Translations under genes and position numbers: made by a program
Notes under the pieces: model-generated
Databases searched by the model: none
What the model saw: the letters and a program-made list of their open reading frames with translations, nothing else
Told to the model about the DNA's origin: nothing
Shown: piece after piece, positions 10,425-27,900 of the stretch
How the letters are laid out: the number at the start of each line of letters is the position of its first letter
Numbering within the stretch: the first letter of the stretch is position 1
DNA from: Thiohalophilus thiocyanatoxydans
GTDB lineage: Bacteria > Pseudomonadota > Gammaproteobacteria > UBA6429 > Thiohalophilaceae
DNA: 64,000 nt
Direction: 5' to 3'
Assembly: GCF_004366735.1 (NCBI RefSeq)
Contig: NZ_SOQX01000001.1
Location: forward strand, 124,001 to 188,000

Positions 10425-11672
10425 TTAAACCAGAATCTCCACCGGCTCGGGGTGGCTCAAAAACCGCGTCGGGCTGGCCGTATAACCGTAGGCGCCGGAC
10501 TGGAACACCACGATCAGATCCCCAACCTCGGCGCGGGCCAGTTCCATCTGTTGCGCCAGGACATCCAGCGGCGTACACAGCGGTCCCACCACGTTGACCA
10601 GCTCGCGCTCGTCGCCCTGCATCCGGTTGCCCACCACCACCGGGTAGTTCTTGCGAATCACCTGGCCGAAGTTGCCCGAAGCCGCCAGATGATGGTGCAG
10701 TCCGCCGTTGGTGATCAAAAAGATCTGGCCGCGGGATTCCTTGCGATCGATCACCTCGGCCACGTAGATGCCCGCCTCACCGACCAGGTAGCGCCCCAGC
10801 TCCAGGATGATCTCCGCCCGGGGCAGTTGCTCGCGCACCGCCGGCAGACGACTTTCCAGATGCGCGGTAATCGGCGCCAGATCCAGCGGTGTCTCGCCGG
10901 GAAAATAGGGGATGCCGAAACCGCCCCCCATGTTGAGCATCTCCACCGGCCCGGGCGCCGATTCGGCCAGGCGCAGGGCCAGGTCGAAGGTCTGCCCCTG
11001 GGCCTCGATCAGCGCTTCGGAGCGCAGGTTCTGGGAGCCGGAGAAGATATGAAAACCCCGAAAATGCAGTCCCAGTTCCCCGATGCGTTTGAGCAGGGCG
11101 GGGACCCGTTCGGCATCCACGCCGAAGGCCTTGGGGCCCCCGCTCATTTTCATCCCGGAGGTCTTGAGTTCAAAATCGGGATTGACCCTGACCGCCACAT
11201 GGGCCATCTCGCCAGTCTGCGCCGAGATTTCCGCGACCCGTTCCAGCTCGGTCTCGGACTCGATATTCAGCGTAATACCGGCGCCCACGGCCATCGCCAG
11301 CTCATTCAGTGACTTGCCCGGACCGGCGAAGCTGATCTCCCCCGCAGGTATCCCGGCGTCCAGGGCCACGCGCAACTCCCGCCCCGAAGCCACATCCAGC
11401 CCATCCACCAGCCCGGCCATGTGCTGCACCACCGCCGGCATCGGGTTGGCCTTGACCGCGTAATGGACGCTGATCCCTTCGGGCAAGGCGGTACGCAGCG
11501 CGGCGACCCGCTCGGTCATCGCCTGCCGATCATAGGCATAAAACGGTGTCTGGCCGACGCGCTGCGCCAGCTGTGACAGGGCAACGCCGCCGATCTGCAG
11601 GCAGTCATCCACCACCGGAAACACGTTGCTGGGAGCGTGGATGGGGGCGTGGCTGGGGCGGCTGTCACTCAT
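10425..11672 (-). CDS. PLP-dependent decarboxylase, exosortase A system-associated
   Basis: The protein has 415 residues from ATG 11672, which has GGAG 11 bases upstream; a longer frame to 11765 overlaps the next gene and is less likely. It is a fold III (alanine racemase/diaminopimelate decarboxylase) enzyme: the PLP lysine lies in VHYAVKANP, the glycine-rich phosphate loop is LNMGGGFGIPY, and the late active-site block GPLCTPLD carries the Cys and Asp that cross from the partner subunit of the dimer. Members of this subfamily travel with the acyl-CoA ligase and ACP of XrtA loci, and their substrate is unknown. The ligase gene ends 7 bp upstream, so the two are co-transcribed and probably act in one pathway. 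Confidence 0.85.
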   Translation of the reverse strand: MSDSRPSHAPIHAPSNVFPVVDDCLQIGGVALSQLAQRVGQTPFYAYDRQAMTERVAALRTALPEGISVHYAVKANPMPAVVQHMAGLVDGLDVASGRELRVALDAGIPAGEISFAGPGKSLNELAMAVGAGITLNIESETELERVAEISAQTGEMAHVAVRVNPDFELKTSGMKMSGGPKAFGVDAERVPALLKRIGELGLHFRGFHIFSGSQNLRSEALIEAQGQTFDLALRLAESAPGPVEMLNMGGGFGIPYFPGETPLDLAPITAHLESRLPAVREQLPRAEIILELGRYLVGEAGIYVAEVIDRKESRGQIFLITNGGLHHHLAASGNFGQVIRKNYPVVVGNRMQGDERELVNVVGPLCTPLDVLAQQMELARAEVGDLIVVFQSGAYGYTASPTRFLSHPEPVEILV

Positions 11673-11679
11673 GGGGGTA

Positions 11680-13260
11680 TCAGTCTCCGGAAAAGAAGTC
11701 GGTGAAACGCGTGGCCAGCTGCTTGCGATCGATCTTGCCGTTGGCATTGCGCGGCAGCGGCTCATGCTGAATTGCGATATGCCCCGGCAGCATGAAGGCA
11801 GGCAGGTGGGGACGCAAGGCGTCCAGCAAACCCTCCATTGTCAGGCCATCCTCCCTGGGCAAGACCACCAGTACAATACCGTGACCCAGGGTCGGGTGCG
11901 GCACACCCAGTGCCGCGGCTTCGGCAACCCGTCCCGAGGCATAGGCGACTTCTTCCACCTCGTTGGGACTCACCCGGTAACCGGAGGTTTTGATCATCTC
12001 ATCCCGGCGCCCGATAAAATAGAGAAAACCGTCCTCGTCGGTGCGCACCGTATCGCCCGACCAGACGGCGAGCTCGGGCACCGGGATAGCACTCGCCTGC
12101 CCGGGGGCCGGACGAAAACGCTCGGCGGTGCGTTCCGGATCATTCCAGTAACCGAGCGAGACCAGCGCGCCGCGGTGAACCAGCTCACCCGGTTCACCTG
12201 CTGCACAGGGGGTGCCGTCTTCACGCACCACCATGACCTCCGCGTTGGGAATCGCCTTGCCCATGGAATCGGGGCGCCGATCCAGCTCCCCGGGCGGCAG
12301 ATAGGTGGAGCGAAAGGCCTCGGTGAGCCCGTACATCAGATAAAAGCGGGTCGAAGGTAATTGCTGGCGCAAGGCATCGAGCACCTTGCGCGGCATCGCG
12401 CCGCCCGAGTTGGTGACATAACGCAGGGTTTCGCGCGTTTGCCCGGGCCACTCCAGCTGTGCCAGCTGGTTCCACAGCGGCGGGACCGCGGCCAGCCCGG
12501 TGATGCCTTCTTTCGCCACCGCCTTGATCACATCCCGGGGCAGCAGATAATTCAGCAATGCCACACTGGCACCGACACTGAACGCGGTGGTCAGCTGGCT
12601 CAGGCCATAATCGAAACTGAGAGGCAGTACCGCAAGCAGGCGATCCGCCGCCCGGTTCTCCAGGTAGCTGGCCACGCTTTCGGCGCCGGCCACCATGTTG
12701 CGATGTGACAGCACCACCCCCTTGGGCCGGCCCGTGCTGCCCGAGGTATAGAGAATGGCCGCCATATCCGTGTCGATGGTGCGATGCAAACCCGGAGACT
12801 CGACGTCCTGGATTTCATGCCAGCCGACTTGCTGATAGTGGTCGGGGGATTCCCCCGCTTCGGCCTCGCCCACCACCAGCACGGTATGCAGATCCGGACA
12901 GTGCGCCAGGCTCTCCTGCAACGCCGCGAGGCGCTCCGGGGACGTCACCAGGATCCGGACGTTGCAGTCCTGCAGGATATACGCGACCTGCTCGGCCTTG
13001 AGCAACGGGTTCACCGGTACAAACACCCCGCCGGCCAGCGAGGCACCGAACAGGGCATGAATGGTTTCCGGTCGCTTGTCCAGGTAGACCGCCACCCGCT
13101 CCTGACGCAATAAACCCGCTTGCAGCAAACCGGCGGCGGCGTTCTGCACGGCCTCGGCCAGCTGAACATAATTCTGGTATTCACCACGATAACCCAGCGC
13201 GGGCGCGTCAGGCGACTGATTAGCCCGGATAATGATGGGGTCGTGCAAGAGAGTGGGCAT
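11680..13260 (-). CDS. acyl-CoA ligase (AMP-forming), exosortase A system-associated
   Basis: The protein has 526 residues and an ANL-superfamily adenylating plan. The P-loop motif is AAILYTSGSTGRPKGVVLSHRN (A3), then YLMYGLTEAFRSTYLPPGE (A5), ELAVWSGDTVRTDEDGFLYFIGRRDEMIKTSGYRVSPNEVE (A7/A8), and the C-terminal lysine PLPRNANGKIDRKQLA (A10). It activates a carboxylic acid as an acyl-AMP and passes it to CoA or to a carrier. The lone ACP at 22635-22886 is an obvious candidate acceptor. It starts the operon with the PLP decarboxylase, which lies 7 bp downstream. Confidence 0.88.
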   Translation of the reverse strand: MPTLLHDPIIIRANQSPDAPALGYRGEYQNYVQLAEAVQNAAAGLLQAGLLRQERVAVYLDKRPETIHALFGASLAGGVFVPVNPLLKAEQVAYILQDCNVRILVTSPERLAALQESLAHCPDLHTVLVVGEAEAGESPDHYQQVGWHEIQDVESPGLHRTIDTDMAAILYTSGSTGRPKGVVLSHRNMVAGAESVASYLENRAADRLLAVLPLSFDYGLSQLTTAFSVGASVALLNYLLPRDVIKAVAKEGITGLAAVPPLWNQLAQLEWPGQTRETLRYVTNSGGAMPRKVLDALRQQLPSTRFYLMYGLTEAFRSTYLPPGELDRRPDSMGKAIPNAEVMVVREDGTPCAAGEPGELVHRGALVSLGYWNDPERTAERFRPAPGQASAIPVPELAVWSGDTVRTDEDGFLYFIGRRDEMIKTSGYRVSPNEVEEVAYASGRVAEAAALGVPHPTLGHGIVLVVLPREDGLTMEGLLDALRPHLPAFMLPGHIAIQHEPLPRNANGKIDRKQLATRFTDFFSGD

Positions 13261-13292
13261 GAATATTATCGTGGGATGGGTAGCGTGATTGA

Positions 13293-13298
13293 ATTATA
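13293..13298 (-). promoter_or_regulatory. TATAAT -10 box upstream of the ligase operon
   Basis: On the reverse strand TATAAT stands about 33 bp before the ligase start. The spacer-matched -35 position (TATCAT) is poor. The 16-bp palindrome at 13306-13321 overlaps that -35 region, as an operator would. Confidence 0.4.
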
Positions 13299-13305
13299 CC
13301 GCAAC

Positions 13306-13321
13306 TATCATGGCGATGATA
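13306..13321. promoter_or_regulatory. TATCAT-GGCG-ATGATA palindrome, operator candidate
   Basis: A perfect 6-4-6 inverted repeat lies in the divergent gap between the ligase operon (reverse) and the TPR gene (forward). It covers the expected -35 of the reverse promoter, so a repressor bound here would block ligase/decarboxylase transcription. The regulator is not identified. Confidence 0.4.
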
Positions 13322-13438
13322 ACATGATACGCTATCCTTAACAGACATGCTGCGGTCCAGACATCGACCGCCATGATGAACAGAAGTATCAGGCCAGCAA
13401 TCTTCCCACCCGATCAAAAAAGTGTCGAGGTTTTTTAC

Positions 13439-14131
13439 ATGTCCAACCACAATAATGTATCTGGGGGTATTTACGCTGCCTGGTCTGCATTCTCCCGAAT
13501 CAGAAACCGGATACCGACACTCACCATCATACTAACCCTGATGGTTATGCCGTTCTCTTTGCAGGCAGAAACAGTTTGTGGCAAACACACACATCCTACC
13601 GGACCGTTTGATTACACCAATCGCGCGCATACCGACAAGTACCTTAATGTTGTCGAGAAACATCATTTCACCGAAGACGTGCGTACCCTGCGTCAGGGCG
13701 CCACAACACACCTGGTGGGCGACCTTGAATATGTACTGAACTGGTTTCCCAATCACCATCAGGCACTGGATGCGCTGACCCGACTCGCCGCCCGCGAGGG
13801 AACAACCCGACCAACTCGCTCACACGTGGACATTGAATGCCGTTTTCAGTGGGCACACGATATCGCACCCGATGATGCCATGGTCTATGTCATCAAGGGT
13901 TTGTACTACGCCCGAACCGATCGAGATAAAGAGGCCCGTTCGGTCTTGCAACAGGCTGTCGACATGACCCCCGACCATCCGGAGATTCATTACAACCTGG
14001 GGCTGGTTCTTTTCAAGCTCAAAGACTATGAAGCGGCCCGTGTTCATGCCAAAAAGGCCTACGAGCTGGGTTACCCGTTACCGGGATTAAAAAATATGCT
14101 CAAAGAAGCCGGTTACAGCCTGTCGGATTAG
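13439..14131 (+). CDS. secreted TPR protein
   Basis: The protein has 230 residues from ATG 13439 (GAGG about 9 bases upstream); an upstream ATG at 13373 would add 22 residues. A hydrophobic segment (IPTLTIILTLMVMPFSLQAET) ends at an AxA-like site, so it is probably a signal peptide placed after an unusually long N-terminus of about 25 residues. The mature part has two TPR motifs near the C-terminus (AMVYVIKGLYYARTDRDKEA and PEIHYNLGLVLFKLKDYEAARVHAKKAYELG). It lies 9 bp upstream of the O-ligase and is probably a periplasmic partner of it or of the EPS machinery. The exact function is unknown. Confidence 0.7.
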   Translation: MSNHNNVSGGIYAAWSAFSRIRNRIPTLTIILTLMVMPFSLQAETVCGKHTHPTGPFDYTNRAHTDKYLNVVEKHHFTEDVRTLRQGATTHLVGDLEYVLNWFPNHHQALDALTRLAAREGTTRPTRSHVDIECRFQWAHDIAPDDAMVYVIKGLYYARTDRDKEARSVLQQAVDMTPDHPEIHYNLGLVLFKLKDYEAARVHAKKAYELGYPLPGLKNMLKEAGYSLSD

Positions 14132-14140
14132 GTCAGCAGC

Positions 14141-15544
14141 GTGCGTGATTATCTCCTCTTCGCCATCATCATTGGCATTGTGCCGTTTATACTCAAACGG
14201 CCCTGGATCGGTATCGCGGCCTGGTTCTGGATCGGTCTGATGGTACCCCAGGGTCACACCTGGGGCTTTATGCGCACCTTCCCCCTGGCCATGGTCATTG
14301 GTCTGGTTACCCTGGCTGCGCTGCTCATGAATCGTGACCGGCGCCCCATCCCCTGGAGCCGGGAGATGATCCTGCTGGCTGTCTGGGTGGGGTATGTCAC
14401 CCTGACCAGCGTCTTTGCCGTGAATCCCGCCGGGGCCTGGGACTTCTGGGTCAAGTTCATGAAGATTCTGCTAATTACCTTCATTACCCCGATGCTGGTC
14501 TACGGGGAAAAGCGCATCATCACGATTCTGCTGGTCATCACCGCCTCCCTGGCGTTCTACGGTTTCAAGGGAGGGTTGTTTGCAATCTCCACCGGGGGCA
14601 ATCACTCGGTACTCGGACCGCCGGGTTCCTACCTTTCCGGCAATACCTATATTGGCCTGGCCATGCTCATGGCGCTGCCACTGATACTGGTCAGCGCCCG
14701 CCTGTTTTATCGCCAGTGGGTCGACTTCGGCATTCCGATCGTAAAACGCTTTTCCCGTCCTCTTGGATTGGGACTGTATGCTGTCTTCTGGTTAACGGTT
14801 ATTTCCGTTCTTGCCACCTACTCCCGGGGTGCGCTGCTGGCACTGCTGGTCATTACACCTTTCTTGCTCTGGCGCATGAAACATAAATGGCTCATAGCCT
14901 CCCTGGCGATACTGGCTGTGGGCGTTATCGGGATTACCGCACCCGAACGCCTCACGGAACGCTGGCAAACCATCGAGACTTATGAAGAAGACACCTCCGC
15001 CATGCAGCGTATCCAGTCCTGGGGCATCAGCCTCAACATGGCCAAAGAGAACCCGGTTACCGGCATGGGCTTTGGTTATACCAATATGGGTTATGACTGG
15101 TGGAGCTCCTACGCCAATTTTGAAGGGTCCTGGCGACATGTCCTGTCACCGCACAGCATATATTTCGGGGTAATGGCACAACATGGCTTCGGCGGTCTGG
15201 CAATCTTTCTGCTGCTTCTGGCTGCAACATTTTTAACTTTGAACAAGATCCGTCGAACGGCGATACAACATACCGGACAAATCTGGCTGGCCGAGTATGC
15301 CTGGGCCTTGCAAATCAGTCTGATTGGCTACGCAGCAGGCGGCGCATTTCTGGATGTGGCCTATTTCGATCTCTACTACGCCTTCATTGCGCTGGTCGTG
15401 ATCATGTGGCGTGAACTGCAAGAGGCGCCATCCCCCGGCGAAGCGGCGACACAAAATACAAAAGACAATACGGCCTCACCCGCCTCCCCCCGATTCCCCG
15501 ACTTTGTTGCGACCCGCACAACCGATCAAAACGAATCAAAATAA
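14141..15544 (+). CDS. putative O-glycosylation/O-antigen ligase, exosortase A system-associated
   Basis: The protein has 467 residues from GTG 14141, 9 bp after the TPR gene. It has about ten to eleven membrane helices and the Wzy_C/WaaL-type periplasmic loop with conserved Arg/His (STYSRGALLALLV; later WRHVLSPHSIYFGVMAQHGFGG). The length and the SRG and PHSxYF signatures match the O-ligase family that accompanies XrtA. It would transfer or polymerise lipid-linked glycans on the periplasmic face, possibly onto protein. The C-terminal about 40 residues are a polar, Pro/Thr-rich tail (SPGEAATQNTKDNTAS). It is in an operon with the unknown 593-aa protein, which starts 17 bp downstream. Confidence 0.85.
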   Translation: MRDYLLFAIIIGIVPFILKRPWIGIAAWFWIGLMVPQGHTWGFMRTFPLAMVIGLVTLAALLMNRDRRPIPWSREMILLAVWVGYVTLTSVFAVNPAGAWDFWVKFMKILLITFITPMLVYGEKRIITILLVITASLAFYGFKGGLFAISTGGNHSVLGPPGSYLSGNTYIGLAMLMALPLILVSARLFYRQWVDFGIPIVKRFSRPLGLGLYAVFWLTVISVLATYSRGALLALLVITPFLLWRMKHKWLIASLAILAVGVIGITAPERLTERWQTIETYEEDTSAMQRIQSWGISLNMAKENPVTGMGFGYTNMGYDWWSSYANFEGSWRHVLSPHSIYFGVMAQHGFGGLAIFLLLLAATFLTLNKIRRTAIQHTGQIWLAEYAWALQISLIGYAAGGAFLDVAYFDLYYAFIALVVIMWRELQEAPSPGEAATQNTKDNTASPASPRFPDFVATRTTDQNESK

Positions 15545-15560
15545 TGATGAGCGTGTCTGC

Positions 15561-17342
15561 GTGAACCCGCCGCGTGATACCCGGATCGACAGCCGGCTTG
15601 ACGAGCGGCTCGCAAGTCTGACAGGCGCATTGCAACAGCAGATCAAACCGGATGGGACACTTTGGGATCCGCAACAGGGTAAATCGAGCCCCGTGGATCA
15701 TTATGCACAGATCAGCACGGCACTTGCCCTGTATCTTCGCCAGCCCGCCGACCCGCTTGTTCGGCGGCTGATTGAACACTGGCTTGCCCAGACATCCGAT
15801 CAACGCGGCCATGCCCCCTTCAATCGTTTTCTGCTGTTATTGCTTCGCGAGACATGGCATAACCATGACGAAGCACGCAGCGCGATCGATGCGTCACTGA
15901 TCACCGAGTCCCTCTCCCGCTGTCCACTGGCACGCCGCTACCCCTCGAATAACTGGACCTTGCTGGCACAGCTTTGCCGCATCATGGAAGCGACTTCAAA
16001 AAAACAGCGCGCACAGGCCACAGGCGAACTGGGACGCATGCTGGATCGCTGGACCATGCCGGCAGGCGGTTTTGTGGATTTTCCCGGTCATGCTGCAAGC
16101 CCGGGCAGCGCCACACCCATGGCGTACCACCATAAAGCCCTGTTCGTCACGACCATGGCCCTGCACTATACGCGCTCATCCAGACTGATGGGCCACCTGC
16201 AACGCCTGCACGAGTGGGTTTTACTCTGCTGGGACGGCCAAACCCATGTCGGCGGCTTTGGTCGCAGCACCCATTCGCTATTCGGAGATGCCTGTCTGCT
16301 GGCCAGCCTGATTCTGTCGGGCTGTGATAAACAACAGCCATCGCAGTCAACCGGGTCACAAATGATTACCGGCATACTCAAACGCTGGTCAGGGCAGTGT
16401 CGTGACGACGACTTGCTGGCACTCAACCCGGCGGGCCAACAGGGTTGGGACAGCTATATGTACCTGTCGGTCTATAACGCATGGACCGCGGCCATTGTCG
16501 GCTGGGCCCGGCATGTCGCGACGAGCGATGCCCAGCCTGTTATCAACACGCAGGCGCTTGAGGCGACACCGGCATTCAGGCAGGACGCGGATGCGGGGTT
16601 GCTGCGCATCGGCACCGACGCGGGACTGGTCGCCCTGCTATCCACCCGGGGACAACGCCCCCAGGGCTTCAGTCGCGACGCGGTTGAATTGCGCTATGCC
16701 GGCGGCGTGCCATTTCATGTTGCCCGGCGTGATCAGCTGTTGTGTCCGGCCTCTACACGGATCAAGGCAACGCGCCTGCTCGCACAACCCGCACTGGCCG
16801 GCTGGACACCCGTGTTTCTGATCGACGGGATACTGTGCGGACTCACCGAATACACCCACGTTCAGATCGAAGAGACGGATGCGGCGTACCGGATCACGCT
16901 GGCAGGCTCGCCGTTGCCCCTCTTGCGGCCAGCGGATTCAACCGCCTGGCAACGCCTGAAAGCGGCCATCGACTGGCGGTTTCTCGACGGTGCGCTTGGT
17001 CGTCGGGCCGTGTTGCAACGCAGGCCGGCGCGCCAGGTACAGGCCCGGCTGGTCATATCTTTGAGCCGACATAAGCCCGAATTGATCCATGAGTTGACGC
17101 TGGAGCCGATAGCCACGGGACGGGTTCGTTATCTCAATCCCGCCGGCCATGCGCTGATAGCCAACGCGTTGCCCCGGACAAGAGAACTGGAAAGCAGCTC
17201 CCGCGATAAAACCCGAACAACCGACGCGGCGTTTCACGACACGACACTGGATTCGGCGATACCCGGCGCCAGCGGTTATTGTCTGGCGGAACAAACGATC
17301 GGCGAAGAAGGTTATCGCCATCGGCTGGTCTTGCAATGGTGA
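15561..17342 (+). CDS. unknown 593-aa protein beside the O-ligase
   Basis: The start is set at GTG 15561 (MNPPRDTRIDSRLDERL...), 16 bp after the ligase stop; the frame stays open further upstream but inside the ligase gene. It has no signal peptide or membrane helix. Residues 1-330 are helical with repeated W/G/H-rich turns (GFVDFPGHAASPGSATPMAYHHKALF; WDGQTHVGGFGRSTHSLFGD), like an alpha/alpha-toroid. Residues 350-593 are strand-rich (LLRIGTDAGLVALLSTRGQ; DAAYRITLAGSPLPLL). This two-part plan recalls heparinase II/III-type lyases and other polysaccharide-acting enzymes, but I see no diagnostic active-site motif. Its job is unknown; operon position suggests it acts on the glycan or its precursor. 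Confidence 0.55.
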   Translation: MNPPRDTRIDSRLDERLASLTGALQQQIKPDGTLWDPQQGKSSPVDHYAQISTALALYLRQPADPLVRRLIEHWLAQTSDQRGHAPFNRFLLLLLRETWHNHDEARSAIDASLITESLSRCPLARRYPSNNWTLLAQLCRIMEATSKKQRAQATGELGRMLDRWTMPAGGFVDFPGHAASPGSATPMAYHHKALFVTTMALHYTRSSRLMGHLQRLHEWVLLCWDGQTHVGGFGRSTHSLFGDACLLASLILSGCDKQQPSQSTGSQMITGILKRWSGQCRDDDLLALNPAGQQGWDSYMYLSVYNAWTAAIVGWARHVATSDAQPVINTQALEATPAFRQDADAGLLRIGTDAGLVALLSTRGQRPQGFSRDAVELRYAGGVPFHVARRDQLLCPASTRIKATRLLAQPALAGWTPVFLIDGILCGLTEYTHVQIEETDAAYRITLAGSPLPLLRPADSTAWQRLKAAIDWRFLDGALGRRAVLQRRPARQVQARLVISLSRHKPELIHELTLEPIATGRVRYLNPAGHALIANALPRTRELESSSRDKTRTTDAAFHDTTLDSAIPGASGYCLAEQTIGEEGYRHRLVLQW

Positions 17343-17403
17343 TCGCCTGAAACCTTTTCTGAGTTGTACTTTATTCCAGGTGCAAGCCGGACGATACGTG
17401 TCT

Positions 17404-18945
17404 TCAGCGGTTTAACGCCTGCTCCAGTTGCAGCGTGTAAAGCGCGGGCCGCAGATACCATGAATAGTCACACTGCCGTTTGCTCATATCCCGCAGCAGC
17501 ATCAACATCACCCGTTCGCTCTTGATAAGACCGGACCCCATGCGGGCGGGATGTTTGATGAAATAGCCCGCAAACTCCCGCACCGCGCGACGATAGTAGC
17601 GACTCATCATTCGCCCTGACGTTCCCCTGGCATCCTTTTTCTCAAATGGCAGGTGTGCATAGTCGGGATAGGCGCGGCGTATGGTTTCATCATGCAGTGC
17701 ATTGTTCACGGAATATGACGCATCCAGGTTAATCAGAAAATCCAGTACGTCATGGTCCAGATAGGGACAGTACACGTTGGGAATATCCGCCAGAATGGCG
17801 AAAGGGATCAGGCCCACACCACGTCGCGTTCGGTTCCAGAAGATATAGGAGACCAGCGGGTGCCTGGCATGCTGATGCCGCGCCAGCTCCTCGGATAACT
17901 TCTGGACTGCCAGCGACTCGTCCAGTTCGCCACTGAAATGCGAACGCAGGGTACTGGACAGAAACGGTCCGAGTCCCGTCTCCCTGAGTAACAAGGTTGC
18001 CAGTTCGGTCAGCTTGCCCGCACGGAATAAGGCCAGTTTCTGCTCATTGACCTGAAAGCCCCCGGAGATCACGCTGCCGGCCAGGCCGTCATACAGGGTC
18101 GAGGTACGCCCCTTGAGATAACTGGCGACCGGCAACAACCAGGTGTGCCCACTGCCACAGAAATTGGTCAATTCAATGTCTTTGAGATTGGCCTGGAAAA
18201 AGGAGTCAGGATTCTCGATTTCCGTATGCGGCAGTTGCAGCTCCGCCGCCAGCATGCGGGCAATACGCAGATCCTCGTTAGCCGAAGGCGGACGCATTTT
18301 CACCGTGATCGTGTTCGAGGGCCGGTAGCCTTGCTTAAGCAGCGCGAGCAAAATATGCCGGGAGTCCCGCCCACCACTGATGGGCAAGGTGAACTCGTCC
18401 GCCGCCGGCGGACGACGGGCGATGGCCTGTTCGAACAGGGAAGCATACTGTCCCACCGCCTCGTCAAAAGAGCGGGCTTCACTGGCCGGCGCGGGGGTCT
18501 CGATACTGCCGCGCTCCAGATGCAGCCGACCCTGTTGCCAGATCAGGCGACTGCCGGGTGGCAGGATCCGGATCTGTTCGAACGGGGTGTCCTCCGCGAT
18601 GAAAAACCCCAGCCGGTAAAATACCGCCAGTGCGGCCGTATCCAGCGTCTTCGGAAAATCCCCTTGCAGCACATGATGAATGGACGGCGAAATATGAATC
18701 GCATTACCGTGGCAGGCGTAATAGAGCGGATAGATCCCGTAACGATCATTGCTCACGACCAGCCGCTGGCCGTCCCACTGCCACTGCACAAAGATCCCAT
18801 CAGCGACGGATCTGTTTCCCGGGCTCAGCCGGTGTCCCAAAAAACAGTGCGGTGTGCCCCCGGTCACGATCCCGTCAGGCGTCACCCGTGCCGAGAAGAA
18901 CGGCCTGTCGAAAGACGATAAAACATCAAGCGGGGAGTGTTGCAT
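17404..18945 (-). CDS. asparagine-synthetase-like protein without the Cys nucleophile
   Basis: The protein has 513 residues. The N-terminal about 170 residues resemble a class II glutaminase fold (FVQWQWDGQRLVVSNDRYGIYPLYYACHGNAIHISPSIHHVL), but the N-terminal Cys needed for glutamine hydrolysis is absent; the protein starts MQHSPLDV. The C-terminal ATP-pyrophosphatase domain keeps the PP-loop FTLPISGGRDSRHILLALL (SGGxDS). So it probably adenylates a carboxylate and uses another amine or nucleophile. There is a late YCPYLDHDVLDFLINLD motif, as in AsnB synthetase domains. It stands alone on the reverse strand, with GT2 and methyltransferase genes upstream of it in the same direction. The substrate is unknown. 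Confidence 0.7.
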   Translation of the reverse strand: MQHSPLDVLSSFDRPFFSARVTPDGIVTGGTPHCFLGHRLSPGNRSVADGIFVQWQWDGQRLVVSNDRYGIYPLYYACHGNAIHISPSIHHVLQGDFPKTLDTAALAVFYRLGFFIAEDTPFEQIRILPPGSRLIWQQGRLHLERGSIETPAPASEARSFDEAVGQYASLFEQAIARRPPAADEFTLPISGGRDSRHILLALLKQGYRPSNTITVKMRPPSANEDLRIARMLAAELQLPHTEIENPDSFFQANLKDIELTNFCGSGHTWLLPVASYLKGRTSTLYDGLAGSVISGGFQVNEQKLALFRAGKLTELATLLLRETGLGPFLSSTLRSHFSGELDESLAVQKLSEELARHQHARHPLVSYIFWNRTRRGVGLIPFAILADIPNVYCPYLDHDVLDFLINLDASYSVNNALHDETIRRAYPDYAHLPFEKKDARGTSGRMMSRYYRRAVREFAGYFIKHPARMGSGLIKSERVMLMLLRDMSKRQCDYSWYLRPALYTLQLEQALNR

Positions 18946-19038
18946 CAGATCAGTATCCAGCCGGGTGCGGCCAGCCCGGTAAGTTTGAATTCATACACCG
19001 CGCACCTGTCGCACCCAAACACCCGGACCCGACAGGCA

Positions 19039-20037
19039 TCAATGCCGTTTTGCCAGAAAGCCTCTGGCCAGATTGGGCAGAAACAACATGGCGCAGAGCG
19101 GATCTTCCCGAAAAGTCGCCATGACACGTCGCCAGTCTATGCTGACACCCTTTTTTAAAAGATGCGGGATGCTTAGTGCAAATGAACGGCGCGAGTCGGC
19201 CAGTTGATGGCGAACGTAAGCCCGTTGTTCCGGGTTCAGGCGGATCGTCGCAAGTATCCGCCGGGACAGGCGGATATAACTGGACAACAGGCGAATCGAT
19301 CCGGCGGTACCCCATTGTGATTTATCGAAGATGTTGATGCCTTCCCCTTCATACGCATAGAGCTTCGGCGAGAAAGCCACGCGTTGAAAATCCTGACCCA
19401 GGGTCAGTTTAAACAACCGATCCTGGCCGTTATAGATAGTCGGATCAAAACGCACCGCCGCGAAGCGATCGAAACGATAGGCCATGGTGGTCGGCCCGAT
19501 AATATTGCTGCGCCGGATCAACAGATCAAAAAAATCACCCTGATATTCATAAAGCGCCCGCTCAGGATCAATGGTTTTGTGATCCGCCGGATGAATGTTC
19601 AGGACGGGATTTTTATCCCATTCAAAGCGGCTGGTCTCACTGCCAACGCGGGTGCTGTTACCCATAAACAGATCGTACCCCTGTTCCAGGGCAGCAACGG
19701 CATCGCTCAGAAAGGGGCCGGTCCATTGATCATCCGAATCGAGAAAAGTGACATACGGGGTACCGGGTGGCACGTTATCCAGACCGGTATTGCGTGCCGC
19801 GCCGGGACCGGCATTTGGCTGGTGAATGATTCTCAGGCGATCACCGGCATCGGGCAGAAACCGGGCAAGCTCCTGATCCGCCGGGATCGGGGATTCATCA
19901 TCGACCACAATGATCTGACAGTCCACGCCACCCGGCTGTTCCAGAATGGACCGCACGCACTGGGTCAACAATCCGGTTTCCCGCTGATAGAACGGAATGA
20001 TCACCGCAATCTCGGGTGTCGACGAGTTACTCATCAT
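19039..20037 (-). CDS. family 2 glycosyltransferase
   Basis: The protein has 332 residues from ATG 20037 (adjacent ATG 20034 is equivalent; an ORF start at 20061 would add eight hydrophobic residues). The GT-A signature is present: IAVIIPFYQRETGLLTQCVRSIL, then IIVVDDESP, NAGPGAARNTGL and the metal-binding TFLDSDDQW. It transfers a sugar from a nucleotide donor to an EPS acceptor or lipid-linked intermediate. The C-terminal third (FRLKLTLGQDF-like region to the end) lacks membrane helices. It lies 3-28 bp from the membrane-anchored methyltransferase, in the same direction. The donor sugar cannot be read from the sequence. Confidence 0.85.
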   Translation of the reverse strand: MMSNSSTPEIAVIIPFYQRETGLLTQCVRSILEQPGGVDCQIIVVDDESPIPADQELARFLPDAGDRLRIIHQPNAGPGAARNTGLDNVPPGTPYVTFLDSDDQWTGPFLSDAVAALEQGYDLFMGNSTRVGSETSRFEWDKNPVLNIHPADHKTIDPERALYEYQGDFFDLLIRRSNIIGPTTMAYRFDRFAAVRFDPTIYNGQDRLFKLTLGQDFQRVAFSPKLYAYEGEGINIFDKSQWGTAGSIRLLSSYIRLSRRILATIRLNPEQRAYVRHQLADSRRSFALSIPHLLKKGVSIDWRRVMATFREDPLCAMLFLPNLARGFLAKRH

Positions 20038-20064
20038 GAGAAAAAGTACCACATAAAACAAGCG

Positions 20065-20805
20065 TTAACCTTTGGTCAGCACAGCCGCACCCTTGTCAAA
20101 CGGCAGCAGTGCCTCGGTGTAGTGGGGCAACTCTTGCTGCCAGCGTGCCAGGATCTGCTTTTCCTCGCCACGCGCGGCATCGTCCAGAAAAACACGGGCA
20201 CCCGGATTAAGCAATCGATCCAGTTGTGGCAGTGCCGGATACCGGGCATGTTTCGAGGTGGTCGCCGGGGGTCCGTCGATAACCAGCATATCGAAGCCCC
20301 CCTCCGGCGCCTGCAGGCGAGTCAAATCGTACCAGGGTTGACCGGCATCCCCGGTGGGAATCAGCGGGGCATGGATGACGCTGGCCCACTCTTCCAGCCC
20401 CTGCTCGACGAGGCCTTCGCGGGTCTGCTCGGCGAAGTGTTCATCATGTTCCAGGCTATAGACGTGACCCACGCCGTTCAATTGACAACAACGCGCCAGT
20501 ACCATGGTGGAAGAGCCGGAACTGCACTCCAGAATCGACACCGGTTTATGTTTTATCGTGTGTTTGGCAAGCGTAAACAGCAGATCCGGCGAAGCGGCCC
20601 AGCCGCGCAACAGCGGCAAAGGCGCAACCGGGCGGATAAGACGCATCAGGCCATCGTAAGCCTGCAGTTGCTGATATAGCGCACCGGATTCTTGCGCCGC
20701 TCCCAACAGCCGGTAGGACGCCAGATGAATCTTGCGTACCTTGTAAAACAACAGCGCCTGGGAGGCCAGTACGACCAGCAGCAGGAACAGTAGCAGGTAG
20801 TCCAT
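20065..20805 (-). CDS. membrane-anchored class I SAM methyltransferase
   Basis: The protein has 246 residues. The first 22 residues are one membrane helix (MDYLLLFLLLVVLASQALLFY) followed by KVRK, so the catalytic domain faces the cytoplasm. Motif I is VSILECSSGSSTMVLARCC (an ExxSGxST variant), motif II is HVYSLEHDEHFAEQTREGL, and the motif IV region is GFDMLVIDGPPATTSKHARYP. This pattern fits the Methyltransf_24 type. It sits directly upstream of the GT2 gene and probably acts with it on a lipid-linked glycan. The substrate is not known. Confidence 0.7.
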   Translation of the reverse strand: MDYLLLFLLLVVLASQALLFYKVRKIHLASYRLLGAAQESGALYQQLQAYDGLMRLIRPVAPLPLLRGWAASPDLLFTLAKHTIKHKPVSILECSSGSSTMVLARCCQLNGVGHVYSLEHDEHFAEQTREGLVEQGLEEWASVIHAPLIPTGDAGQPWYDLTRLQAPEGGFDMLVIDGPPATTSKHARYPALPQLDRLLNPGARVFLDDAARGEEKQILARWQQELPHYTEALLPFDKGAAVLTKG

Positions 20806-20960
20806 GTCATAAGTCCCTTTGTTAGTGAAACGTCCTTACTTTCCGGCCATGTATCCATTCAGCGCAGACCGATAGCCAGAACCGGCTGCGTCCGACAACC
20901 CCCAGTGTAGCTCACTTTACGCAATGACAACCTGATTACCCGGGGCGGGTTCTCAGCGGG

Positions 20961-21821
20961 TCACTCTTCGCCTGATCGAACCCACTCCAGCGTCCATTGT
21001 GCCACCTGATCCCGCCACGCCTGGCGAGAGAACGTATGGTTGGCTTGCGGCAATTCCCGCAGCGTGACCCGCGACTGTTTCAGCAACCCGGCCCAGGCCG
21101 GATCGGTGGCGGCCGTATCGCGAAACTCGGCGGCGGTCAGATCGTCGCCGCTGAGTATCAGCAGAATCGGACCGCGATAGCGTCGCCAGCCCTCGGCCAT
21201 GCGTTGCGGCAGCGGCCCGGTGGGGTTGCCGGCAGACTCGCCCTGCGCCGCCGGCCCGGATGACCCGGCCAGCCGGCGCAGCAGGCTGAAGACAGAACGC
21301 AGCGAGGCGACGGGGTTGAACCTGCCGCGCAGCAGGTTCACCCAGAAATCACGGCTGAACAAACGCTTTATATAATAGGTTTTCAGATAGGCCCGGGCCA
21401 GGCTCTCCCCGGTGCGCACCCAGGGGTTGGCCAGCACCAGCCCGTGGATACGCGGTTCCTTCGGGGCGGTGATCAGGGCGATGGATGCCGCATCACACAG
21501 CCCCCAGACGATCACCTCGCGCAGGTCCGGCAGCTGGGCCTGAAAGGTGTCGATGGCCGCGCGGATGTCATCGCCAACCCGCTCGAAATCACGCTGCGCC
21601 CCCGTCGAGTCGCCCATCCCGCGATAGTCAAAGCGGAACACCGGAATACCGGCCGCGGCCAGATGGCGAGCCAGCAGCAAGAACTGACGATGGCTGCCGA
21701 CCCGGTACTGCGGACCGCCCACGACCACCAGCACCCCCCGAACCGCCTGCGGCGCTCCCGGATGCAGGATCCCCAGCAGCTCGTCATCCCCGACCGGGAA
21801 AATGATCGCCTGCTCGCTCAC
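20961..21821 (-). CDS. exosortase A system-associated hydrolase 1 (alpha/beta fold)
   Basis: The protein has 286 residues from GTG 21821, which overlaps the stop of the upstream hydrolase as GTGA; this coupling decides the start over the open frame to 21950. The alpha/beta hydrolase plan shows GVLVVVGGPQYRVGSHRQFLLLARHLAAAGIPVFRFDYRGMGDS (oxyanion and strand region), and EVIVWGLCDAASIAL with a Cys in place of the usual Ser at the nucleophile elbow (GLCDA). This fits family members that may use a Cys nucleophile. His appears in QANHTFSRQAW and an acid in LSGDDLTAAEF. Substrates are unknown. The last gene of the ACP-hydrolase 2-hydrolase 1 operon. Confidence 0.85.
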   Translation of the reverse strand: MSEQAIIFPVGDDELLGILHPGAPQAVRGVLVVVGGPQYRVGSHRQFLLLARHLAAAGIPVFRFDYRGMGDSTGAQRDFERVGDDIRAAIDTFQAQLPDLREVIVWGLCDAASIALITAPKEPRIHGLVLANPWVRTGESLARAYLKTYYIKRLFSRDFWVNLLRGRFNPVASLRSVFSLLRRLAGSSGPAAQGESAGNPTGPLPQRMAEGWRRYRGPILLILSGDDLTAAEFRDTAATDPAWAGLLKQSRVTLRELPQANHTFSRQAWRDQVAQWTLEWVRSGEE

Positions 21822-22624
21822 CGCAGCACCGCCTGCAAACCCGCCAGACTCGCGTCCAGCAAGGCCGGTACTTCGTGGATCTCCTGGGTGGTCCAGAAAG
21901 GATCGCCGCGCACGGCGCCCGTGTGGAGGGTCATTCCCTGTTGACGCCACGCGTCGATCAGGCGGGTGCTGACCGGCGGCAGTTCGGGCGGGTCGCCGTG
22001 CGCCACTTCCAGCCAGGCGAGCGGCGTGCCGGGCGAGGCGACTAGCCGCGCCCCGGCAAGCGCGTCGGCCAGCGCCGGGGCCAGAGCATAGCCGGCCACC
22101 TCCAGCGTTTCGCCTTCCTTCAGCCGGGCCCGCAACTGGCCGGTGGTTTCCTTGCCGCTGCCCATCATCCCCGCGGCCATACGCAGGCGCAGAAACTGGG
22201 CCAGATAGCGTTCGCCATCGCTCACCGGTTGCCAGTAGAGGACCGCCGCCGGCGGGATCTGGCGAACCTGCAGGAGATCGCTGATCAGCAGGCAGCCCGC
22301 GCGCAGCCCCCAGAGGATCACCGGACCGGGGTAACGCTCCTGCAGCCAGTCCAGGCCGTCGCCAAGATCGGCCAGCCAGTCCTGCCAGCGGGCATCGGCA
22401 AAATCACCGCCGCTGTCACCGCAGCCATAGAGATCGGGCATGAATACCGCATAACCCTGTTCGGCCAGCAGGCGGGCCTGGCGCGCCGCCATGCGGCGGG
22501 ACTTGTTGAGTTCTTCGGCGAAGGGGGGAACATACAGCACGCAGCCGCGTACCGGCCTGCCCGCCGGTTCATGCAGGATATAAAAGAGCGGGCCTTGCCC
22601 GCCTGCCAGAAACCCGGCTTTCAT
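21818..22624 (-). CDS. exosortase A system-associated hydrolase 2 (alpha/beta fold)
   Basis: The protein has 268 residues from ATG 22624 (MKAGFLAGGQGPLFYILH), 10 bp after the ACP stop; the open frame runs to 22714 inside ACP and is not preferred. It has an alpha/beta hydrolase core with GCVLYVPPFAEELNKSRRM, the YAVFMPDLYGCGDSGG strand and PVILWGLRAGCLLISDL at the nucleophile position, where the canonical GxSxG is replaced by GLRAG. So a classical Ser nucleophile is not evident and the catalytic status is uncertain. The paired hydrolase 1 overlaps its stop by 4 bp. Together they could act on a carrier-bound acyl or aminoacyl intermediate; the substrate is unknown. Confidence 0.8.
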   Translation of the reverse strand: MKAGFLAGGQGPLFYILHEPAGRPVRGCVLYVPPFAEELNKSRRMAARQARLLAEQGYAVFMPDLYGCGDSGGDFADARWQDWLADLGDGLDWLQERYPGPVILWGLRAGCLLISDLLQVRQIPPAAVLYWQPVSDGERYLAQFLRLRMAAGMMGSGKETTGQLRARLKEGETLEVAGYALAPALADALAGARLVASPGTPLAWLEVAHGDPPELPPVSTRLIDAWRQQGMTLHTGAVRGDPFWTTQEIHEVPALLDASLAGLQAVLR

Positions 22625-22634
22625 GCGAAGTGTT

Positions 22635-22886
22635 TCAAGCGGCGAGCTTGGAATCGACAAACTCGACCAGGCTGCCCAGGGTCTCGAACGTCTCGGCGCT
22701 GATCTCGTCGTCATCCACCATGATGCCGAACTGCTCCTCGATGGTCGTGATCACGGTCACCACCGCCATGGAATCCAGCTCATGGATATTGCCGAGCAGG
22801 GGCGTATCGGTATCGAATTTTTGCACGCGGCCGTTGAGCCCCAGTGTGCTGTCCAGGATAGTTTTGACTTGTTCGAGACTCGACAT
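22635..22886 (-). CDS. acyl carrier protein
   Basis: An 83-residue acidic four-helix protein: MSSLEQVKTILDSTLGL..., with the phosphopantetheine attachment Ser in ELDSMAVVTVITTIEEQFGI (DSM). A perfect AAGGAGG precedes the ATG. It is the first gene of a tightly packed operon with hydrolases 2 and 1. This is a stand-alone ACP not linked to fatty-acid genes. The likely loading enzyme is the acyl-CoA ligase at 11680-13260. The pathway would then hold an acid on the carrier while the asparagine-synthetase-like proteins, hydrolases or PLP decarboxylase act on it. The first statement is clear from sequence; the rest is inference. Confidence 0.9.
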   Translation of the reverse strand: MSSLEQVKTILDSTLGLNGRVQKFDTDTPLLGNIHELDSMAVVTVITTIEEQFGIMVDDDEISAETFETLGSLVEFVDSKLAA

Positions 22887-23011
22887 CGGGACCTCCTTCC
22901 CTTAACACAGACACAGGAATCATGTCCTGTTGGAGCAAATGCTCTATGATGTATCCCTGAGGATAATTAAACCCGTGTGATTGTATCACCAACACGGGCA
23001 AAGGGAGACAG

Positions 23012-24793
23012 ATGCGAGAGTTAGGCGGCTGGTTTACCACGGATGGCACCCCGGGACCCGACATGCCCGCGGCCGACAACAACGCAGCATCGCGTTTCAC
23101 CAGCGAGGGGGGCGCCTGCCAGGTTCGGGGCGGCTGGATCGCCCGCGACGGGGAGGGCCGGATTGCCGCGCTGATCGGCCACCCGCAATGGCAGGACCCG
23201 CCCGCCGGACAGGACCCCGCGCAGACCCTGCTGGATCGCTACCGGCGTGACGGCGAGCAGCTGTTCGCCCGCCTGAGCGGCGATTTCGCGCTGGCGATTC
23301 TGGACCCGGTCGCGCGACGCCTGCTGGTGGGCATTGACCGCCTGGGCCGCTTCCCGCTGTATATTTCCCGCATTCCCGGCGGCGTCGCCTTTGGTTCCGC
23401 CATCGACCGCCTGCCGAACGCGGCCACCCTTGATCGCACGCCTTCGCCGGACGGTCTCTATCACTACCTGTTCTTTCATATGCTGCCGGCGCCGGTGAGT
23501 CTGTTTGCCGACGTGGAAAAACTGCAAGGCGCACACTGCCTGCGGCTGGATTCGCAAAACCTGCGCATCGCGCCTTACTGGCAGCCCCGCTTCGAGGAAC
23601 CGGCACAGGCCGACATGGGCGCGCTGGGCGAGGAACTGCACCGCCTGCTCGACGCGTCGGTCGACAAACTGACCGACCCGGGAAAGACCGGCGCGTTTCT
23701 CAGCGGCGGCCTGGACAGCTCGACCGTGGCCGGCAAGCTGGCACAGTTGCACCCCGGCGAGGCGGATACGTTCAGCATCGGCTTCGATGCGCCGGGCTAC
23801 GACGAGATCGCCTATGCCCGGATCGCCGCGCAACACTTCAAAACCCGTCCGCACGAGTACTATGTTTCGCCCGACGATGTGGTCGACGCGATACCGCTGA
23901 TCGCCGCCAGCTACGATGAGCCGTTTGGCAACTCCTCGGCGCTGCCGGCCTATTTTTGTGCCCGCCTCGCCGCCGACAGCGGGACCACCCGCCTGCTGGG
24001 CGGCGACGGCGGGGACGAGCTGTTCGCGGGCAACGCGCGCTATGCCAAGCAGGGCGTGTTCGAGCTCTGGTCCCGGCAACCGGCGCTCGCCCGCCGCCTG
24101 CTGGAGCCTCTGTTCACCCATCTGCCGCGCGCATCTTTACTGGGCAAGGCCCGCAGCTATGTGGAGCAGGCCCGGATTCCGCTACCGGATCGCCTGCAAA
24201 CCTATAATTATCTCCATCGCCTGTCGCTGACGGCGATGTTCGAGCCCGGGTTCCTGGCCCAGGTACACACCGAAGGCCCCTGGGATCTGATGCGGGATAT
24301 CTACCGGCGTCCCGAAGCGGCCTCGTCGCTCAATCGCATGATGTATCTGGACTGGCAGCAGACCCTGGCCGACAACGATCTGCGCAAGGTGAGCCGCATG
24401 TGTGAACTGGCCGGCGTCGATGTCGCCTATCCCATGCTGGATGATGCCCTGGTGGACTTTTCCTGCCGCATCCCCTCGGCCATGAAACTGCACAAGGGAC
24501 GGCTGCGCCATTTTTACAAAAACGCCATGAGCGGCTTTTTGCCCGAAGCGATCCTCGACAAGAAAAAACACGGCTTCGGACTGCCCTTTGGCGTCTGGAT
24601 GCGCGAACACACCCCCCTGCGGGAACTGGCCTACGACGGCCTGCTGCGCTTCAAGTCCCGGGGGATCCTGCAACCGGCGTTCATCGACCGGCTGATCACC
24701 CTGCACCGCGAAGGCCATGCCGCGTATTACGGGGAACTGGTGTGGGTGCTGATGATGCTCGACCTGTGGCTGGAAACACATAAGCCCCGCTAA
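23012..24793 (+). CDS. asparagine-synthetase-family protein lacking N-terminal Cys
   Basis: The protein has 593 residues. The N-terminal glutaminase-like half (RLSGDFALAILDPVARRLLVGIDRLGRFPLYIS, ending KLQGAHCLRL) lacks the Cys2 nucleophile; the protein begins MRELGGWFTTDG. The synthetase half is complete: PP-loop TGAFLSGGLDSSTVAGKLA, FSIGFDAPGYDEIAYA, SYDEPFGNSSALPAYF, GGDGGDELFAGNARY and the late VAYPMLDDALVDFSCRIP and KHGFGLPFGVW. This is the plan of the exosortase-linked AsnB-like proteins. It probably activates a carboxylate as an adenylate and condenses it with ammonia or an amine from another source. It is divergent from the ACP operon, with about 125 bp between the two starts. Confidence 0.8.
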   Translation: MRELGGWFTTDGTPGPDMPAADNNAASRFTSEGGACQVRGGWIARDGEGRIAALIGHPQWQDPPAGQDPAQTLLDRYRRDGEQLFARLSGDFALAILDPVARRLLVGIDRLGRFPLYISRIPGGVAFGSAIDRLPNAATLDRTPSPDGLYHYLFFHMLPAPVSLFADVEKLQGAHCLRLDSQNLRIAPYWQPRFEEPAQADMGALGEELHRLLDASVDKLTDPGKTGAFLSGGLDSSTVAGKLAQLHPGEADTFSIGFDAPGYDEIAYARIAAQHFKTRPHEYYVSPDDVVDAIPLIAASYDEPFGNSSALPAYFCARLAADSGTTRLLGGDGGDELFAGNARYAKQGVFELWSRQPALARRLLEPLFTHLPRASLLGKARSYVEQARIPLPDRLQTYNYLHRLSLTAMFEPGFLAQVHTEGPWDLMRDIYRRPEAASSLNRMMYLDWQQTLADNDLRKVSRMCELAGVDVAYPMLDDALVDFSCRIPSAMKLHKGRLRHFYKNAMSGFLPEAILDKKKHGFGLPFGVWMREHTPLRELAYDGLLRFKSRGILQPAFIDRLITLHREGHAAYYGELVWVLMMLDLWLETHKPR

Positions 24794-27714: not shown

Positions 27715-27900
27715 ATGCAAACTATCAAGCAAATTGTTCACGATATCGCCGACCACCTCCCCGAGGAGGCTACCTTTGAAGATGCCATGCATGCTATCTA
27801 TCTGCGTCAGAAACTCGAGCGCTCGCTCCAGGCCGCGGAAGAAGGCAAGATAACCTCGCAGGAAGAGATGGAAAAGCGCTACCTGAACGATGCGCGTTGA
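27715..27900 (+). CDS. antitoxin of a ParE/RelE-type module
   Basis: A 61-residue acidic protein (MQTIKQIVHDIADHLPEEATFEDAMHAIYLRQKLERSLQAAEEG...) with AGGAG about 9 bases upstream. Its short helical length, the conserved DHLPEEATFEDAMHAIYLR segment, and the position 5' to a ParE-like toxin are those of antitoxins that often lack an obvious DNA-binding fold. The stop codon overlaps the toxin start by 11 bp, so translation is coupled. It would bind and neutralise the downstream toxin and probably autoregulate the pair. Confidence 0.8.
   Translation: MQTIKQIVHDIADHLPEEATFEDAMHAIYLRQKLERSLQAAEEGKITSQEEMEKRYLNDAR

Follow-up and report, generated by a model that had tools for sequence, protein, structure and literature searches.

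Two described systems come closest to the locus considered here: the BtrI-BtrJ-BtrK proteins of the butirosin side chain, in which BtrJ is an ATP-grasp ligase and not an AMP-forming one, and the VinN-VinL-VinO proteins of vicenistatin biosynthesis. In the latter, VinN charges the acyl carrier protein (ACP) VinL with 3-methylaspartate, which VinO then decarboxylates on the carrier (PMC11284099, sections available to us). The locus lies in a stretch of 64,000 nucleotides from the gammaproteobacterium Thiohalophilus thiocyanatoxydans (contig NZ_SOQX01000001.1, positions 124,001 to 188,000; hereafter the window, in which all coordinates are counted from the first letter), where a stand-alone ACP, an AMP-forming ligase, a fold-III pyridoxal phosphate (PLP) decarboxylase and two alpha/beta hydrolases sit as a module in an exosortase A (XrtA) exopolysaccharide locus. 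A link between exopolysaccharides of this type and floc formation has been described (PMC9850573, in the excerpt consulted). We favor, with moderate confidence, the view that this carrier module charges the ACP with an acidic amino acid, which loses a carboxylate there to leave an omega-aminoacyl-ACP, and that hydrolase 1 then hands the acyl group on.

The five components, which a preliminary description of the region had placed together in one locus, are all confirmed by family matches. The ligase (11680..13260, minus strand) adjoins the BtrK-like decarboxylase (10425..11672, minus strand), for which the listed open reading frame (ORF) is 10425-11765 and for which spacing and sequence point to the ATG at 11672, 7 nt past the ligase stop, as the likely start. 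The ACP (22635..22886), hydrolase 2 (21818..22624) and hydrolase 1 (20961..21821) form a second tight minus-strand group apart from this pair; its near end lies about 8 kb, and its ACP about 9 kb, from the ligase start. On the same grounds of spacing and sequence, the start of hydrolase 2 (ORF 21818-22714) was corrected to the ATG at 22624, 10 nt past the ACP stop, and that of hydrolase 1 (ORF 20961-21950) to the GTG at 21821, which overlaps the hydrolase 2 stop. Four of the five proteins exceed curated NCBIfam cut-offs, namely the ligase for TIGR03098 (780.8 bits, cut-off 592), the decarboxylase for TIGR03099 (631.6 bits, cut-off 478), hydrolase 1 for TIGR03100 (340.3 bits, cut-off 168) and hydrolase 2 for TIGR03101 (269.1 bits, cut-off 203). 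These models are "hypothetical equivalog" families associated with the exosortase A system, and their descriptions name no pathway; these four parts belong to families that already have NCBIfam names. The ACP matches PF00550 (33.6 bits, cut-off 20.8), and no NCBIfam model reached its cut-off with this protein.

The ligase is similar to non-ribosomal peptide synthetases (TIGR01733, 276 bits, under the cut-off of 317), and its pocket bears on the substrate. When the pocket stretch alone is compared with the PDB, 3wv4 ranks first (55 bits) and 4-chlorobenzoyl-CoA ligase second (40 bits), and the same stretch of 3wv4, used as the query, finds only itself above 32 bits, so that its next PDB relative scores below its match with the window pocket. 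The entries 3wv4 and 3wvn, labeled "Non-ribosomal peptide synthetase" in the PDB, are what we take to be VinN. Ligase residues D217, S285 and R317 align with D, S and R at chain positions 246, 315 and 347 of these entries, which a uniform 16-residue offset converts to D230, S299 and R331, presumably the substrate contacts of VinN, with the Asp serving the amine and the Ser and Arg the second carboxylate. Among 79 ligase homologues (4 of 83 ligases, shorter than 480 aa, were left out), D217 and R317 are each present in 79/79, and position 285 is occupied by Ser in 49, by Thr in 29 and by Gly in one, so that the Ser holds in the window protein and not in all homologues; in the three 4-coumarate-CoA ligase rows displayed, the corresponding residues are Ile, Gly and Pro. 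The pocket of the window protein thus appears to match that of VinN at three presumed contact residues. Furthermore, where VinN has bulky residues (Y, I and I), these ligases have S/N, mostly A, and S/A, with F316, which stands for a VinN Lys, as the one pocket position that is not smaller; the pocket may accordingly be larger than that of VinN. Given these smaller residues, together with the glutamyl substrate of BtrK, Glu is favored over Asp as the predicted substrate.

The best PDB relative of the decarboxylase is BtrK (268 bits), which carries the name "L-glutamyl-[BtrI acyl-carrier protein] decarboxylase", followed by a diaminopimelate decarboxylase (171 bits); VinO is absent among the PDB matches of this protein. 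The PLP Lys (Lys105), the catalytic Cys397 and Thr398 are kept in 87/87 homologues, and the Glu that follows the catalytic Cys in LysA-like proteins is replaced by Thr in all of them, the motif reading CTPLD instead of CETGD. We assume that the LysA Glu contacts the distal end of diaminopimelate. Moreover, the LysA segment around NDLMRPALYN is swapped in these homologues for a conserved GG[LM]HHHLAASGNFGQ...RKNYP stretch, part of which (GG-HHH, NYP and CTP-D) is found in BtrK. An assignment as LysA was rejected, since the match to TIGR01048 (251.9 bits) stays under the cut-off of 297.9, the CE(S/T)GD motif is lost, and the genome encodes a separate LysA-like protein that has the Glu. By its closeness to BtrK and by the lost Glu, the protein is a putative BtrK-type aminoacyl-ACP decarboxylase.

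The carrier itself retains the residue to which a substrate would be attached: the Ser of the DS(M) motif (ELDSM in the window protein) is kept in 44/44 ACPs, so that the loss in homologues named in the preliminary description as an argument against a carrier route is not seen. Searched against the PDB, the ACP profile matches best with 2lki (115 bits, E 9e-33; the next match has 38 bits), an ACP entered under the title "Putative uncharacterized protein", which we take to be NE2163 of Nitrosomonas europaea. The entries 5czd and 2n57, presumably VinL and BtrI, are distant from the ACP (31 and 29 bits). A holo-ACP ne2163 structure is mentioned in PMC4249514, and neither the PDB title nor the passage of that article in which it appears assigns a function to 2lki. 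The same entry is the best match of the ACP of L195 (93 bits), one of five loci (L194-L196, L198 and L199, from genomes that lack TIGR03100) in which the ACP stands beside a similar run of ORFs with no relatives of the queried window proteins nearby.

The ACP, the ligase and the decarboxylase co-occur as a unit. In a survey of 299 genomes, sampled evenly from the phylum, an 11-row ACP profile was used with a threshold (E<=1e-15) fixed in a 25-genome search ahead of the survey; it finds the ACP in 19 genomes, identical to the 19 that have TIGR03099 over its cut-off (Fisher p 2e-30), with the profile rows coming from six of them (the window, L013-L016 and L018) and none from the other 13, so that the hits in the row-supplying genomes are partly by construction and the absences elsewhere are not. 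The TIGR03098 ligase is present in 19/19 of these core genomes (18 over cut-off) and exceeds its cut-off in 0/36 of the non-core genomes among the 55 searched for it (19 core, 15 with a weaker decarboxylase and 21 others). These 15 of the 299 genomes hold a TIGR03099-like decarboxylase below the cut-off (E<=1e-100) without this ACP, and 13 of them have a weaker ligase match as well; hence, the decarboxylase-ACP pairing holds for the family proper only, and there is a wider ligase-decarboxylase family, possibly with other carriers. Where this ACP is missing, such below-cut-off ligase and decarboxylase relatives adjoin in six genomes (G149, G028, G151, G185, G175 and G265) and lie within 8 kb of each other in five (G014, G010, G115, G130 and G197).

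The same unit is seen at the level of loci. We compared the best 80 of 559 loci by decarboxylase similarity, with bit thresholds for the locus labels of 300 for the decarboxylase and ligase, 80 for hydrolase 1, 60 for hydrolase 2, 30 for the ACP, 50 for the GNAT-family protein, 150 for the labels asn2 and amid, 100 for asn1 and 60 for the others. The ligase is labeled in 77 of these loci, the ACP in 36, hydrolase 1 in 31 and hydrolase 2 in 32, the corresponding figures for the 47 loci longer than 21 kb being 47, 27, 22 and 23. Of 76 same-strand pairs of ligase and decarboxylase, 71 are separated by no more than about 250 bp. Twenty-five genomes, corresponding to 25 of the 49 loci that lack hydrolase 1 and also lacking the ACP at the locus, were searched whole (several are metagenome-assembled genomes, and some contigs end inside the flank); the ACP was found in 25/25 and TIGR03100 in 17/25.

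Both hydrolases had been described as departing from the GxSxG elbow, with GLCDA in hydrolase 1 and GLRAG in hydrolase 2. These elbows are real, and structure models of both proteins place the Cys and the Arg at the nucleophile position, but the two departures have opposite meanings: hydrolase 1 keeps a Cys-Asp-His set, whereas hydrolase 2 looks dead. In hydrolase 1, the elbow Cys is present in 39/39 homologues and in 10/10 more distant ones, and Cys, Asp and His are invariant in 14/14 alignment rows; the model (mean pLDDT 89.2) has the Cys between a strand and a helix, and the folds closest to it are those of esterases and lipases (TM about 0.6) and of the thioesterase DcsB. With a nucleophile-acid-His triad, it is a candidate active alpha/beta hydrolase, with acyl transfer or thioesterase activity predicted. 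In hydrolase 2, the elbow Arg is found in 39/40 homologues, the remaining one being gapped at this position, and R108 is invariant in 14/14 rows (8 sequences further), a set that reaches down to 21% identity. The 14 aligned rows hold no invariant His, and there is no Ser, Cys or Asp nucleophile; the model (mean pLDDT 92.3) is likewise esterase-like, with a strand-[R]-helix arrangement at the elbow. We predict that hydrolase 2 is an inactive partner of hydrolase 1. An ordered same-strand ACP-hydrolase 2-hydrolase 1 triad occurs in 29 of the 80 loci, with gaps below 300 bp in 27, and the two hydrolases are fused as one ORF in genome G126 (L017:9405-11246); in view of the fusion and the triad, the two are likely to work as a pair. 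One locus, L036, has two ACPs and two hydrolase 1/hydrolase 2 pairs around a single decarboxylase; the ligase match there is partial and lies on the other strand. A defense role was considered and rejected, as PADLOC gave no match for hydrolase 1, hydrolase 2, the asparagine-synthetase-like protein at 17404-18945 or the GNAT-family protein.

The distribution of hydrolase 1 connects the module with exosortase A. XrtA (TIGR03109 over cut-off) is found in 20 of the 299 genomes, and the comparison of gene content across XrtA genomes that had been proposed as a check shows the core in 17 of these 20, that is, in 17 of the 19 core genomes. Strong matches to the hydrolase 1 profile (E<=1e-49) occur in 17/299 genomes, exactly those with both the ACP and XrtA over cut-off, a count that excludes three weak matches (G028, G143 and G262; E 7e-22 to 7e-25) and in which hits are partly by construction and absences elsewhere are not; as 14 of the 17 genomes supplied profile rows, the absences are the informative part. 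In the remaining two core genomes XrtA does not reach its cut-off (G107 gives no match, and G155 an exosortase match of 128 bits), and neither has a hydrolase 1 hit. Among the 25 chosen genomes, XrtA exceeds its cut-off in 0/8 without TIGR03100 vs 14/17 with it (p 1.5e-4). These distributions indicate that hydrolase 1, and with it hydrolase 2, goes with XrtA-type genomes and that the core is broader. In one genome, the XrtA match is divided between two frames (G305:C16:19081-19849). Two survey genomes, G213 (L020) and G246 (L019), carry hydrolase 1/hydrolase 2-like pairs, with TIGR03101 below cut-off, and lack the ligase-decarboxylase-ACP core.

Based on gene content, the observed co-occurrence and the conserved active sites, we infer from the sequences how loading and decarboxylation would proceed. 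The ligase would adenylate the side-chain carboxylate of an amino-dicarboxylate, most likely L-Glu and less likely L-Asp, and transfer it to the phosphopantetheine of the ACP, with D217 predicted to hold the amine and R317 and S285 the alpha-carboxylate. The decarboxylase would then strip the alpha-carboxylate on the ACP, to give 4-aminobutyryl-ACP (or beta-alanyl-ACP). More tentatively, the acyl group might move onto the Cys of hydrolase 1, with hydrolase 2 as the inactive partner, and from there onto the XrtA-type polysaccharide, or a precursor of it, at an amino or hydroxyl group; transfer to the polymer by hydrolase 1 is our guess from its triad, its gene position and its tie to XrtA. The nucleotide-sugar dehydrogenase (24874-26190) and the polysaccharide deacetylases encoded in the window could give the polymer carboxylates and free amines. 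The route suggested in the preliminary description, in which an acid, perhaps an amino acid, is handled on a carrier, thus stands as a carrier route, probably for an amino acid, in a polysaccharide locus, and its substrate can be sharpened to an amino-dicarboxylate that is probably decarboxylated on the ACP.

Several observations weigh against this reading. Linear gramicidin synthetase A heads the PDB rows of the full-length ligase (280 bits, in two stretches), ahead of 3wvn (209 bits); the Thr found at position 285 in part of the ligases departs from the pocket pattern, and both the identification of 3wv4/3wvn as VinN and the roles of its residues are our assumptions. The circularity of the two profiles and the weaker decarboxylases without this ACP have been noted above, and the 80 loci were themselves picked through decarboxylase similarity. 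Three of the 20 XrtA genomes (G007, G015 and G267) lack the core as well as the ligase. The independent TIGR03101 model finds hydrolase 2 (E<=1e-20) in 9/299 genomes, 7 of the 19 core genomes plus G213 and G246, a count that misses divergent hydrolase 2 proteins, found beside hydrolase 1 as ORFs. Finally, the core occurs in G107 and G155 with neither strong hydrolase 1 nor XrtA over cut-off, and both are missing from 8 of the 25 chosen genomes, so that the core product, whatever it is, does not require hydrolase 1; given the nearest folds of hydrolase 1, plain hydrolysis by this protein is quite possible. An alternative that we regard as possible although rather unlikely is that the core works as proposed, hydrolase 1 is an editing thioesterase for mis-loaded ACP, and an enzyme of the GNAT, TIGR03694 or MBOAT type makes the transfer. 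It is in line with the esterase, lipase and DcsB-like folds, with the persistence of the core where hydrolase 1 is absent, and with a TIGR03694-type gene that lies behind the ligase-decarboxylase pair on the same strand in 9 of the 80 loci. However, hydrolase 1 follows XrtA and not the core, a family-wide replacement of Ser by Cys is presumably unusual among plain esterases, and no more than 5 of the 19 core genomes have TIGR03694.

Two further alternatives reject the loading step as proposed, and both appear improbable to us. The ligase could be an acyl-CoA or fatty-acyl-ACP ligase, with the PLP enzyme working separately on a free amino acid, as might be gathered from the NCBIfam name "acyl-CoA ligase", from strong matches to general acyl-CoA ligase models (304 bits for PRK06187, under the cut-off of 476) and from the second rank of 4-chlorobenzoyl-CoA ligase in the pocket search. 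Against this, D217 is kept throughout where the 4-coumarate-CoA ligases have Ile, the ligase and decarboxylase genes are closely spaced in nearly all same-strand pairs, and the decarboxylase is BtrK-like; given the pocket match to 3wv4 and the state of D217, a fatty-acyl-CoA ligase was rejected as the leading interpretation. A charging system of the DltA/DltC kind, in which an amino acid is loaded by its alpha-carboxyl for esterification of a polymer and the diamine made by the decarboxylase is unrelated, would account for the amine-binding Asp of the ligase and for the distant PDB matches that include a D-alanine ligase and D-alanyl carrier proteins, but the invariant R317 fits a second carboxylate, if its role in VinN is as we assume, and the decarboxylase, ligase and ACP occur together in 19/19 core genomes. 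As an extension of our proposal, the module might make an amine handle for exosortase A, with 4-aminobutyrate (GABA) or beta-alanine added to the exopolysaccharide by the two hydrolases, cleaved PEP-CTERM proteins joined to the free primary amine of this group and the polymer thus serving as the sought-after XrtA acceptor. The occurrence of strong hydrolase 1 in exactly the 17 genomes with the ACP and XrtA allows such a reading, which nonetheless is a long shot; XrtA genomes that lack the core, like core genomes that lack XrtA, argue against a general role of this kind.

Around the module, the window also encodes exosortase A (35492-37051), an XrtA deacetylase, a FemAB-like protein, glycosyltransferases, PrsT, a PEP-CTERM response regulator, PrsK and an EpsB-type glycosyltransferase. 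The stretch 10425-24793 also covers a TIGR03097 O-ligase-like membrane protein, a glycosyltransferase and a methyltransferase, which we do not count as module parts. Both asparagine-synthetase-like proteins mentioned in the preliminary description were found. The one at 23012..24793 (plus strand, divergent from the ACP operon; PF00733, 272 bits) has a homologue in 26 of the 80 loci and is a possible amide-forming partner. Its N-terminus, MRELGGW, lacks the catalytic Cys of the MCG start of glutamine-dependent asparagine synthetases; judged by ORF start, 0/26 homologues begin with MCG, and 13/26 keep CG[WFY], with the Cys at residue 5 in 10, so that these 13 may still be glutamine-dependent. 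The other, at 17404..18945 (minus strand), has weak family matches (PF00733, 40 bits over 79 aa) and was dropped as a core part for its weak tie to the module, its homologues being labeled only in L022 and L098 among the 80 loci. A third such protein, full-length and predicted to be glutamine-dependent, lies at 32203-34098 (minus strand; TIGR03108, 1100 bits). The GNAT-family acyltransferase at 9658..10386 (plus strand; PF00583, 25 bits) is an optional neighbor and was likewise dropped from the core, with homologues in 8/80 loci plus L018. The same applies to the TIGR03694 exosortase-associated N-acyltransferase at 51610-52401 (plus strand, 253 bits), a family present in 17 of the 25 chosen genomes in addition to the core genomes counted above; its relatives lie 283-870 bp downstream of the ligase-decarboxylase pair on the same strand in L038, L040, L046, L047, L052, L063, L064, L069 and L080, where the fetched stretch shows no ACP, hydrolase 1, hydrolase 2 or asn2. 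A RelE/StbE-like ORF at 27890-28198 (plus strand) scores 25 bits, slightly under the family cut-off of 27.9.

In the open-license PMC literature, as far as the texts were accessible, we found no stated function for the ligase, the decarboxylase or the ACP, a weak absence given that scope, and nothing on polymer decorations made by these genes or on the aminoacyl-ACP reading. The transposon hits in the accessible part of PMC3684757 include asparagine synthases, and PMC11631085, in the portion seen, has exosortase in its reference list alone. If our proposal is correct, a polymer of the bacterial matrix is decorated by carrier chemistry of the antibiotic style, four NCBIfam families labeled hypothetical acquire a testable function, exosortase chemistry gains a candidate amine source, and the hydrolase-like protein whose nucleophile position has a conserved Arg becomes a defined puzzle.

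The NCBIfam families TIGR03098-TIGR03101 also count among the closest known systems, with four window proteins over the curated cut-offs. With regard to chemistry, the D/S/R pocket is common to VinN and the window ligase, with the difference that several pocket positions of the latter are smaller, F316 in place of Lys excepted. VinJ presumably has an alpha/beta hydrolase fold, so that a protein of this fold may belong to the vicenistatin logic too. It appears as an amidohydrolase in PMC11284099, the available sections of which also bring out the shared plan of a stand-alone adenylating enzyme, a stand-alone ACP and a PLP decarboxylase acting on an ACP-bound amino acid. Unlike the vicenistatin system, the present locus shows no polyketide synthase and instead combines a polysaccharide with an exosortase setting, and hydrolase 1 has a Cys plus a dead-looking partner. 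The butirosin system provides, in BtrK, the closest solved relative of the decarboxylase, with the GG[LM]HHH, NYP and GPLCTP segments in common, but its product passes to an aminoglycoside (PMC11405602, in the part consulted). Thus, the gene families and the precedent chemistry were already known, and what appears to be new is the putative occurrence of antibiotic-type aminoacyl-ACP chemistry in an exopolysaccharide/exosortase system.

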